Of a DNA stretch of 64,000 bases, positions 41,281-44,649 are shown one piece after another (position 1 is the stretch's first letter; each line of letters begins with the position of its first letter). The DNA is from Methanococcus voltae. GTDB taxonomy: Archaea > AGJL01 > Methanococci > Methanococcales > Methanococcaceae. Position numbers and translations under genes: made by a program. The stretch is from the NCBI RefSeq assembly GCF_024807655.1, contig NZ_JANUCR010000001.1:248001-312000 (forward strand). The letters are read 5' to 3'. Below the pieces are notes generated by a model. That model worked only from the letters and a program-made list of their open reading frames with translations, searched no databases and had not been told where the DNA came from.

Positions 41281-41607
41281 ATGGAAATTGTTAAAGTATG
41301 TCCTGATATAAACGTAGTATTGGACATCGATTCAGGTTTAATCGCAGAAATGAGAAAAGATATTCTTGTAACTGACTTAAAACCTGTTTCAGCAGAAATA
41401 GAACAATTAGAAAAACTTGCGATAGCATTGGAAAATTCATTAGACCCAAGAAACGCACCTATGAAATCATATGTTGGTAGAGAAGGTACGTACAAAATTG
41501 GAGGTTTATTCCAAGGAATGTTCTTCGGTTTCTGGATTGCCTTGTCAATTTTAATGCTCGCAGTATTCTTAATCATTAAAACGGATTTAAGCCTAATAGG
41601 TCTCTAA
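41281..41607 (+). CDS. mtrB: Methyl-H4MPT:CoM methyltransferase subunit B
   Basis: MtrB is a small Mtr subunit with one C-terminal membrane anchor (about residues 78-100, [20 protein letters not shown]). Its soluble N-terminal part begins [20 protein letters not shown]. The length, 108 residues, matches the family. ATG at 41281 follows AAGGTGAT. Confidence 0.96.
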
Positions 41608-41625: not shown

Positions 41626-42117
41626 GGAGGTGCTAAAATATGGCAGATAAAAAAGCCCCTGCAACAGGATGGCCTGTTGCTAATGGTGAATATGTTGTAG
41701 GTAATCCTGAAAGCTGTGTAGCTGTTGTTACATTGGGTTCACACGGATTAGATGAAGCAGCTATCGAAGCAGGTGCAGCTATTTCAGGACCTTGCCACAC
41801 AGAAAACTTGGGTATTGAAAAAGTTATCGTTAACTACATTTCAAATCCAAACATCAGATTTATGGTTGTGACAGGTTCAGAAGTTCAAGGACACATTACA
41901 GGACAATGTTTCAAAGCTCTCTATGAAAATGGAATTGGTGACGATGGTGGTATTATCGGCGCTAAAGGAGCTATTCCGTTCATGGAAAACGTTGGACAAG
42001 AACCAGTTGCAAGATTCCAAAATCAAATCGTTGAATTAATTGATATGATTGATTCAGAAGATAAAGGAAAAATTCAACAAACAGTTAAAGACTGTATCTC
42101 CAAAGACCCTGGTGCAT
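41626..42117 (+). repeat. 492-base direct repeat, copy 1 (mtrA)
   Basis: From the ribosome-binding site GGAGGTGCTAAAAT through codon 159 of mtrA the sequence is the same, base for base on my reading, as 42621-43112. The offset is 995 bases. Similarity continues imperfectly for about 60 bases more. Confidence 0.92.
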
Positions 42118-42368
42118 TTGAGGAAGATGCTATGGTTATAGACCTTGAAGGTAAAGCAGGTGGGGCAGGAGAAGAAGAAGGTTCTTCAGTTAAAATAACA
42201 TCTCCTGAAATGGCAATAATTGAATCAAGAATGAGAATAATCTCAAAACAAATTGAACAAGCTGCAATTGTTAACAAATACAACTCTGGGTATTATAACG
42301 GTAAAATCCAAGGTGTTGCAATAGGTTTATTCTTATCACTTCTTATATACAGTATGTTATTAATTTAA
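41640..42368 (+). CDS. mtrA: Methyl-H4MPT:CoM methyltransferase subunit A
   Basis: MtrA carries the corrinoid (5-hydroxybenzimidazolyl cobamide) that accepts the methyl group and passes it to CoM. The 242-residue product has a soluble corrinoid-binding domain (1-175) in which His85 of [10 protein letters not shown] should be the cobalt ligand, by comparison with His84 of Methanothermobacter MtrA. An acidic Gly/Glu linker and a C-terminal membrane anchor (about 222-242) follow. ATG at 41640 has a strong GGAGGTG. The first 159 residues are repeated exactly in the next gene. Confidence 0.97.
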
Positions 42369-42420
42369 TTATTAATTTAGCCAGTATTTAACCATTAAAT
42401 TGATGATTAAATAATAATTA

Positions 42421-42450
42421 ATGATAATTAAGGATAATTAAGGATAATTA
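42421..42450. repeat. Tandem ten-base repeat between mtrA and the chimeric mtr gene
   Basis: Three copies of a ten-base unit (ATGATAATTA, AGGATAATTA, AGGATAATTA) lie in the 266-base spacer. The spacer is otherwise low-complexity A/T, including repeated TTAATAATTAATAATTAATAA. No gene is seen in it. Confidence 0.8.
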
Positions 42451-42620
42451 ATGATTAAAACTGTATATATGAATTAAACACGGATTGGTATCTAAATATA
42501 TTAATAATTAATAATTAATAAAATATTAATAATAATTATGTTAAATTACCAATTAAAAGTTTGAAATTAATTAAGTTAAATATGTAAATACTAAATCAAA
42601 CCAAACATATATGCCTTCCA

Positions 42621-43112
42621 GGAGGTGCTAAAATATGGCAGATAAAAAAGCCCCTGCAACAGGATGGCCTGTTGCTAATGGTGAATATGTTGTAGGTAAT
42701 CCTGAAAGCTGTGTAGCTGTTGTTACATTGGGTTCACACGGATTAGATGAAGCAGCTATCGAAGCAGGTGCAGCTATTTCAGGACCTTGCCACACAGAAA
42801 ACTTGGGTATTGAAAAAGTTATCGTTAACTACATTTCAAATCCAAACATCAGATTTATGGTTGTGACAGGTTCAGAAGTTCAAGGACACATTACAGGACA
42901 ATGTTTCAAAGCTCTCTATGAAAATGGAATTGGTGACGATGGTGGTATTATCGGCGCTAAAGGAGCTATTCCGTTCATGGAAAACGTTGGACAAGAACCA
43001 GTTGCAAGATTCCAAAATCAAATCGTTGAATTAATTGATATGATTGATTCAGAAGATAAAGGAAAAATTCAACAAACAGTTAAAGACTGTATCTCCAAAG
43101 ACCCTGGTGCAT
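42621..43112 (+). repeat. 492-base direct repeat, copy 2 (chimeric mtrA/mtrF)
   Basis: This is the second copy of the repeat starting at the ribosome-binding site GGAGGTG and covering codons 1-159 of the chimeric gene. The lack of silent differences suggests recent duplication or ongoing gene conversion. Confidence 0.92.
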
Positions 43113-43396
43113 CAGAAGAAGATGCTATGGTTATAGACCTTGAAGGTAAAGCGGGAGAAGCGGGAGAAGATTCAGGCGATGGTTTTGCTATTGAAGGTAT
43201 TCCTACAGTATCAGAACCAGATCTCGAATATGTAAAAAAATTAAATGAAAGTCTCGACTATAAAGTAGGACTTATCACAAGAGATTTGGGTCTCGCTTCT
43301 GGAGTTCAGTCTGAAAGTCTCACCGGTTTATTATATGGTACGATATTTGCGTTAGTATTTGTCGCAATACCATTAATATTAAAAATTGGATTATAA
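42635..43396 (+). CDS. mtrF: Chimeric Mtr subunit: MtrA corrinoid domain fused to MtrF
   Basis: The 253-residue product has two parts. Residues 1-159 are identical to MtrA, including the presumed cobalt ligand His85, and about 20 further residues are similar. From about 187 the sequence is MtrF-like ([20 protein letters not shown], then [20 protein letters not shown] as a membrane anchor). It takes the mtrF slot between mtrA and mtrG, and no separate mtrF is seen. Pfam notes MtrF domains at the ends of some MtrA proteins, so the fusion class is known. The exact identity to the neighbour is the odd point. It could place a second corrinoid carrier in the complex. Confidence 0.9.
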
Positions 43397-43443: not shown

Positions 43444-43668
43444 ATGGCTGAAATTCCTACAGTAATAACACCAAACAAGGAATTCAAAGAATTACAGAAA
43501 AAACTTGACGAAGTTGAAGATAGAGTTGAAAGAACAAATGCTGAAATCTTCCAAAGAACAGGTCAAAAAACAGGAAGAGATGTAGGTATTGTACTTGGTT
43601 TCGCAATTGGAACCGTATTATTATACTCATTAGCAGGAGCTTTGCAGTTCTTCAATCTTATAAAATAA
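43444..43668 (+). CDS. mtrG: Methyl-H4MPT:CoM methyltransferase subunit G
   Basis: MtrG is a small Mtr subunit with a coiled-coil-like N-terminal half (KELQKKLDEVEDRVERTNAE, about 15-34) and one C-terminal membrane segment (about 50-70). It has 74 residues, the usual length. ATG at 43444 follows AAGGTGATT. It starts 48 bases after the chimeric mtrA/mtrF gene. Confidence 0.95.
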   Translation: MAEIPTVITPNKEFKELQKKLDEVEDRVERTNAEIFQRTGQKTGRDVGIVLGFAIGTVLLYSLAGALQFFNLIK

Positions 43669-43689: not shown

Positions 43690-44649
43690 ATGTTCAAATT
43701 CGACAAAGAACAGGAAATTATTGAATTAGCTGGTGCTAGATTTGGAGGACAACCAGGAGAATGTCCTACCGCATTATCAGGTACCATATTTTACGCTAGA
43801 CACAAAATTGTAGAAGATGCTAAAAAAGGTATCTTCGATAAAGCTGCTGCTGAAGAATTAATCAACAAGCAAGCTGAAATGCAAGATATCACAGGTAATT
43901 CCGCATTAGTGCAAGTATTCGGTGGTTCAGAAGAAGCACTCGTTAATTACATTGACTTCGTAGCTGATGTATGGGATGGACCTATGTTATTGGACTCAAC
44001 ATCTGGTAAAGCAAGAATGGCTGCAGCTACAAGAGCTACAGAAGCTGGATTTGCTGGACAATGTGTTTACAACTCAATTAACGTTTCAATGGACGAAGAA
44101 GAGTTCCAAAATTTAGTTGAAAGTGATTTGGAAGCTTCAATCGTTTTATGTTTCGACCCAATGGACCCTTCAGTAGAAGGTAAATTAAACGTTTTAAACA
44201 ACGGTGGTAAAACAGCTGAAACAGGTATGTTAGAACTCGCTGAAAAAGCAGGTATTAAACACCCATTAATTGACGTTGCTGTAACCCCTATGGGTAATGG
44301 TGCAGGTCAAGCTGTAAGAGCTTCATTCGCTGTTAAAGCAAAATTAGGTTTACCAGTAGGTAGTGGTATCCACAACATTCCATCAGCATGGGACTGGTTA
44401 AGAGAATTCAGAAAAGGATTAAGAGAAAACGACAAAGCACAGTTATCAAAAGACGTACACCACGTGTGCGACATTGGTGCTAACATTGTTCAAACAATGG
44501 CTTCAGGAGACTTCGTTCTCTACGGTCCAATTGACAACTCACAATTAGCATTCCCTGCTGTAGCAATGACCGATATGATTATCGCAGAAACAGCTAAGGA
44601 CTTAGGTACAACACCTGATGAAATACACCCATTACACAAATTAATCTAA
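43690..44649 (+). CDS. mtrH: Methyl-H4MPT:CoM methyltransferase subunit H
   Basis: MtrH is the soluble subunit that transfers the methyl group from methyl-tetrahydromethanopterin to the corrinoid of MtrA. The 319-residue product is a TIM-barrel methyltransferase, beginning MFKFDKEQEIIELAGARFGG and containing DGPMLLDSTSGKARMAA and IDVAVTPMGNGAGQAVRAS. ATG at 43690 follows GAGGTGGAAT. It is the last mtr gene; 209 AT-rich bases separate it from a convergent gene. Confidence 0.97.
   Translation: MFKFDKEQEIIELAGARFGGQPGECPTALSGTIFYARHKIVEDAKKGIFDKAAAEELINKQAEMQDITGNSALVQVFGGSEEALVNYIDFVADVWDGPMLLDSTSGKARMAAATRATEAGFAGQCVYNSINVSMDEEEFQNLVESDLEASIVLCFDPMDPSVEGKLNVLNNGGKTAETGMLELAEKAGIKHPLIDVAVTPMGNGAGQAVRASFAVKAKLGLPVGSGIHNIPSAWDWLREFRKGLRENDKAQLSKDVHHVCDIGANIVQTMASGDFVLYGPIDNSQLAFPAVAMTDMIIAETAKDLGTTPDEIHPLHKLI

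Follow-up and report, generated by a model that had tools for sequence, protein, structure and literature searches.

Why would a methanogen carry the same B12-binding domain twice in one operon, once on the usual MtrA anchor and once on the anchor of another subunit, MtrF? Mtr carries out the sodium-pumping methyl-transfer step of methanogenesis, and no agreed mechanism yet links methyl transfer by the mobile MtrA domain to pumping. Complexes with two carriers, together with relatives that have a carrier only on the second anchor, offer natural tests of the tether position, and the same natural cases test the need for the MtrA anchor apart from its cofactor. Here, we analyzed the mtr operon in a 64,000-nt stretch of Methanococcus voltae DNA (referred to as ‘the window’) and compared it across the order Methanococcales. 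The window itself re-finds a published case; it is the carrier relocation seen in relatives that merits further work.

The mtr locus and its two carrier genes

The window genome is a draft assembly of ~1.86 Mb in 18 contigs. Its mtr operon is complete, in the order mtrE-D-C-B-A-AF-G-H, and is preceded by two genes that we take to be mcrG and mcrA. All window features given here with coordinates lie on the forward (+) strand. Downstream of mtrB (41281..41607; PF05440) is mtrA (mtrA-1; 41640..42368), an open reading frame of 242 aa comprising a corrinoid domain and a normal MtrA anchor, which matches MtrA over its full length (PF04208, 2e-80; TIGR01111, 363.8 bits over residues 1–241). The C-terminal stalk/membrane anchor, delineated as a phmmer MtrA_C segment, occupies 42174..42365 and is present throughout the order except in two genomes (G001 and G034). 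An AT-rich spacer of 266 nt (42369..42634) separates mtrA from the mtrAF fusion (mtrA-2a; 42635..43396), which is followed by mtrG (43444..43668; PF04210) and by mtrH, encoding the methyltransferase subunit (43690..44649; open reading frame, homology across the order).

The fusion is an open reading frame of 253 aa that joins a corrinoid domain to an MtrF anchor. In one frame, residues 4–175 match MtrA (PF04208, 1.8e-79) and residues 188–249 (43196..43381) match MtrF (PF09472, 6.4e-19; TIGR02507), so the gene is indeed the mtrA/mtrF chimera proposed in the preliminary description. The MtrF profiles are matched as a whole subunit, with 67.5 bits against a cut-off of 22 for PF09472 and 83.9 bits against 25 for TIGR02507, and the MtrF chain of a PDB entry (9qtp_P) aligns to residues 187–249. 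A search for a separate, intact mtrF elsewhere in the window genome, which is 97% complete, returned the fusion as the single PF09472 match. The fusion stands in for a separate mtrF and is the sole detected mtrF of this genome, as had been proposed from its place between mtrA and mtrG, with which the operon order agrees.

The two genes begin alike. An ungapped comparison found the same 492 nt at 41626..42117 and 42621..43112, offset by 995 bases, which matches to the base what had been read by eye. The block starts 14 nt 5′ of the ATG, thereby taking in the ribosome-binding site, and runs to the first base of codon 160; after it, the first mismatches fall in codons 160 and 161 and then from codon 173 onward. 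The linkers are still homologous up to about codon 176, and the anchors differ thereafter. The second copy also keeps the cobalt-ligand histidine ascribed to it, at residue 85 as in the first. The computed position of the His85 codon is 41892..41894 in mtrA, where by alignment the residue equals His84/His85 of PMC4915002 and PMC12774963, and 42887..42889 in mtrAF. Cobalt-ligand His84/85 and the supporting Glu54/55 of MtrA are named in PMC4915002. His85, Glu55, and a GAIPF-x-EN segment are intact in both window genes and invariant in all ten fusion proteins aligned.

The spacer is 279–297 nt long in the two nearest genomes and 16–40 nt in the other genomes with mtrA followed by the fusion. The close relatives G019 and G020 have the same mtr layout as the window, and parts of the spacer are conserved in both, namely its final stretch, leading up to the ribosome-binding site, and a block close to ttaaacacggattggtatcta. 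An Rfam search of the 266 nt at E 0.5 gave no match to an RNA feature, and a promoter scan of the spacer gave scores no better than those of shuffled sequences under a bacterial-type model, which is ill-suited to archaea. Separately, a contig labelled as a Bacteroidales MAG (L088, JASGMZ010000055.1) carries mtr genes ~90% identical to those of the window, a probable contamination of that MAG.

Distribution of the fusion in Methanococcales

We surveyed 31 mtr operons/genomes of the order, including that of the window (G000). The fusion is present in 20 of the 31 and absent from a third of the sample. Eleven genomes have mtrA with a free mtrF, and 11, the window among them, have mtrA followed by the fusion; the comparison with relatives called for earlier thus recovered ten further Methanococcales genomes organized like the window. 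In seven (G021, G024, G025, G026, G028, G030, and G032), the fusion follows a shortened upstream gene, and in two (G001 and G034), it is found by itself. Genome-wide searches for the MtrA anchor in these last two, assembled in one and 120 contigs, respectively, found none. The fusion-only operon of G034 is likely a repeat collapse. At the locus of G001 (L107, 1897–4698 on its reverse complement), a tandem mtrC-mtrB repeat with a short second mtrC precedes the fusion, and this layout may be a real rearrangement or a mis-assembly of a single-contig genome.

Across the order, the stalk subunits (MtrB, the MtrA anchor, MtrF, and MtrG) fall into two deeply diverged types. One member of the window's family, G023 (L099, compared with L090–L093 and L102), has the stalk type otherwise found in some genomes of the other family. 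Its MtrE, D, C, and H nevertheless cluster with those of its own family, a mismatch that suggests horizontal exchange of stalk genes.

An old duplication with recent sequence identity

How old is the second carrier, and how old is its identity to the first? Within the window, the first 157 codons of mtrA and mtrAF differ at 0 of 471 nt and 0 of 69 fourfold sites, which settles the count of silent differences that had been suggested as a check. The same domain differs from its orthologue in a more distant genome of the genus (G015) at 77 bases, including 24 of 61 fourfold sites. Compared with the nearest relative, G019, it shows eight differences, and the two G019 copies are themselves identical. 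In both comparisons, mtrA and mtrAF give equal counts. Because the copies are identical within each genome, the changes that arose after these two lineages split are present in both. Paralogues pair by genome in the DNA tree, and a tree holding the mtrA-1 copies as one clade is rejected (AU p 2.2e-10).

The fusion itself is shared across genera. The tree built from the stalk genes (MtrB, MtrA anchor, MtrF, and MtrG) places it in essentially one clade and requires just two changes of state, which fits a single origin followed by reversion to free MtrF in G029. On the MtrE+D+C+H tree, four changes of state are needed, and some exchange between lineages is therefore likely. In most pairs, the shared stretch begins at the ribosome-binding site or further 5′, 14–27 nt ahead of the ATG; the exceptions are G016 and G017, where it begins 3 nt ahead. 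High identity ends at about codons 160–180, where the linkers diverge. Beyond the carriers, the two genes have diverged from one species to the next, while the carrier copies remain matched to each other. Since the fusion is shared across genera, paralogues pair by genome, and the copies are identical, the comparisons point to a duplication that is old and a sequence identity that is recent on the scale of species divergence, i.e., to gene conversion. The earlier wording, ‘recent duplication or gene conversion’, is thus borne out in its second half, by the 0 of 69 fourfold differences and the AU test, and fails in its first, given a fusion shared between genera and essentially one clade on the stalk tree.

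The identity has also been lost in one lineage. The G016 pair (L094, 3253–3972 and 3989–4750) has escaped homogenization, with 51 of 471 nt differing and 25 nonsynonymous against 15 synonymous codons. Homogenization can lapse, and strict identity is not needed in all lineages.

Two other origins of the identical copies have to be weighed. Tandem duplication and fusion could have occurred recently and independently in each species, with no conversion of old duplicates, and would leave identical copies in tandem that pair by genome, as seen. This account is very improbable, as it must place the same fusion at the same place in 20 genomes, and it runs against the one history shared by the MtrF parts and stalk genes, with two state changes, and against downstream parts that diverge between species while the carriers stay locked; we reject it on the shared fusion and on the DNA, MtrE+D+C+H, and stalk trees. 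Still less credible is an assembly artefact as the source of the second copy, or of a spurious identity, in the window. The genome is a draft of 18 contigs, and assembly readily goes wrong at identical repeats, but the copies have different flanks with a 266-nt spacer between them, and ten other Methanococcales genomes, several of them single-contig, are laid out in the same way. Distinct flanks and recurrence in independent genomes lead us to reject the artefact as unlikely.

A proposed two-carrier Mtr

We favor, with a probability of roughly 0.78, a Methanococcales-type operon whose second carrier arose when an ancient duplicate of the corrinoid-carrier domain of MtrA was joined to MtrF, so that Mtr would hold two B12 domains of the same sequence on its MtrA and MtrF anchors, kept interchangeable by conversion, and both shuttling. 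The stalk of the Mtr complexes with solved structures is built from the MtrA, B, F, and G anchors. Because each protomer needs an MtrA and an MtrF anchor and there is no free mtrF gene, the likeliest reading of the gene content is that a protomer of the window organism holds two carriers, as the preliminary description had soundly deduced. Each protomer would have one MtrA and one MtrF anchor, each tethering an identical corrinoid domain; with both carriers moving methyl groups, a trimer would have as many as six. The second carrier may raise turnover, buffer against damage, or simply persist. Recurrent conversion between the tandem copies would keep the carriers interchangeable for MtrH and MtrCDE, while the anchors, having different places in the stalk, would be left to diverge. 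An AlphaFold model of the fusion reached a mean pLDDT of 39.7, with ten similar sequences only, too low to be informative.

Alternatively, the fusion could be chiefly an MtrF subunit, freed by an internal start or by proteolysis, with the extra carrier as a by-product. Three M. maripaludis-like genomes (G015, G017, and G018; L097, L096, and L095) have an in-frame ATG at codon 184, where the MtrF domain starts, after a GGAGG/AAGGTGG-like site, and internal initiation there could yield free MtrF in these three. The window and most other fusion genomes, however, have no start with such a site at that place; the carrier residues are intact in the fusions; and in the seven genomes with a shortened upstream gene, the fused carrier is the only one and is thus needed. 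We therefore hold release of MtrF from a by-product carrier to be unlikely and retain the two-carrier complex as the preferred reading.

Probable relocation of the carrier in seven relatives

The best available argument that the MtrF-tethered carrier of the window is functional comes from these seven genomes (G032, G024, G025, G028, G026, G030, and G021; loci L109, L110, L113, L115, L116, L117, and L118, respectively), in which the carrier is found only on the MtrF anchor. Their shortened gene upstream of mtrAF is an anchor-only mtrA that has lost its corrinoid domain and has a start codon and ribosome-binding site of its own. Its first ~20–45 codons form a leader with little similarity to the corrinoid domain, after which come the end of the carrier domain (NPGAIDEEPMILDLEGG), an acidic linker, and the normal MtrA anchor; the match to TIGR01111 covers only positions ~134 to 237 of 238. 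No further MtrA domain was found in the seven genomes, one of which (G028) is a single contig. Gene order argues against repeat collapse as the source of this layout: a collapse in assembly would not leave the anchor 5′ of the carrier.

The anchor-only protein is evidently under purifying selection, since silent changes outnumber replacements in every pair compared (e.g., 31 versus 6 and 33 versus 5). The seven genomes are monophyletic with full support and belong to one genus-level group. Solved structures of Mtr place the MtrA helix at the center of the stalk on the cytoplasmic side, in contact with MtrE, and retaining the anchor without its carrier is therefore structurally sensible. From the gene content, we infer that the MtrF anchor is the only tether from which the B12 domain shuttles in these genomes, which suggests, by a natural domain transfer in relatives, that an MtrF-anchored carrier can work by itself. 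More broadly, it is quite probable that the duplicated carrier has been a route by which the Mtr sodium pump moved its B12 shuttle to another anchor, leaving these seven Methanothermococcus-related genomes with a selected anchor-only mtrA and their sole corrinoid domain on the MtrF anchor. If true, the relocation separates the structural role of the MtrA anchor from cofactor carriage and means that the shuttle works from another tether point. No report of an anchor-only mtrA or of carrier relocation was found in the papers searched, a set outside which most subscription journals lie.

Comparison with known Mtr systems

The arrangement in the window and its conversion were already published in 2015. 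Wang et al. (2015, PMC4632066) described mtrA-1/mtrA-2a in Methanococcales, including M. voltae and M. maripaludis, reported the fusion for the Methanococcales surveyed there, a smaller sample than the present one, and found conversion lasting through the history of Methanococcales and Methanomicrobiales; PMC6053082 repeats the mtrA-1/mtrA-2a case and confirms concerted evolution. Both mtrA copies are essential according to Sarmiento (2013), as given by Wang et al. (2015, PMC4632066). The window has the same genes in the same order (mtrA, fusion, mtrG) with the same homogenized carrier domain, and its fusion carrier is closer to its own mtrA-1 than to orthologues (AU p 2.2e-10), so that there is no essential difference from mtrA-1/mtrA-2a (PMC4632066). 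What is added to the mtrA-2a picture here are the genomes without the fusion, one pair escaping conversion, and the seven genomes with an anchor-only mtrA.

The mtrA-2b of Methanomicrobiales, an MtrA–MtrG fusion, likewise puts a second corrinoid domain on a stalk anchor and evolves in concert with mtrA-1 (Wang et al., 2015), but its anchor is MtrG rather than MtrF, and its origin is separate (PMC4632066). When we sampled 120 genomes of the order to which a Methanospirillaceae genome belongs, two MtrA matches were present in most. The canonical Mtr complexes of M. marburgensis (8Q3V) and M. mazei (9QTQ) resemble that of the window in having eight subunits and a stalk of MtrA, B, F, and G helices; unlike it, they carry a single corrinoid domain in each protomer, and their MtrF is a free subunit.
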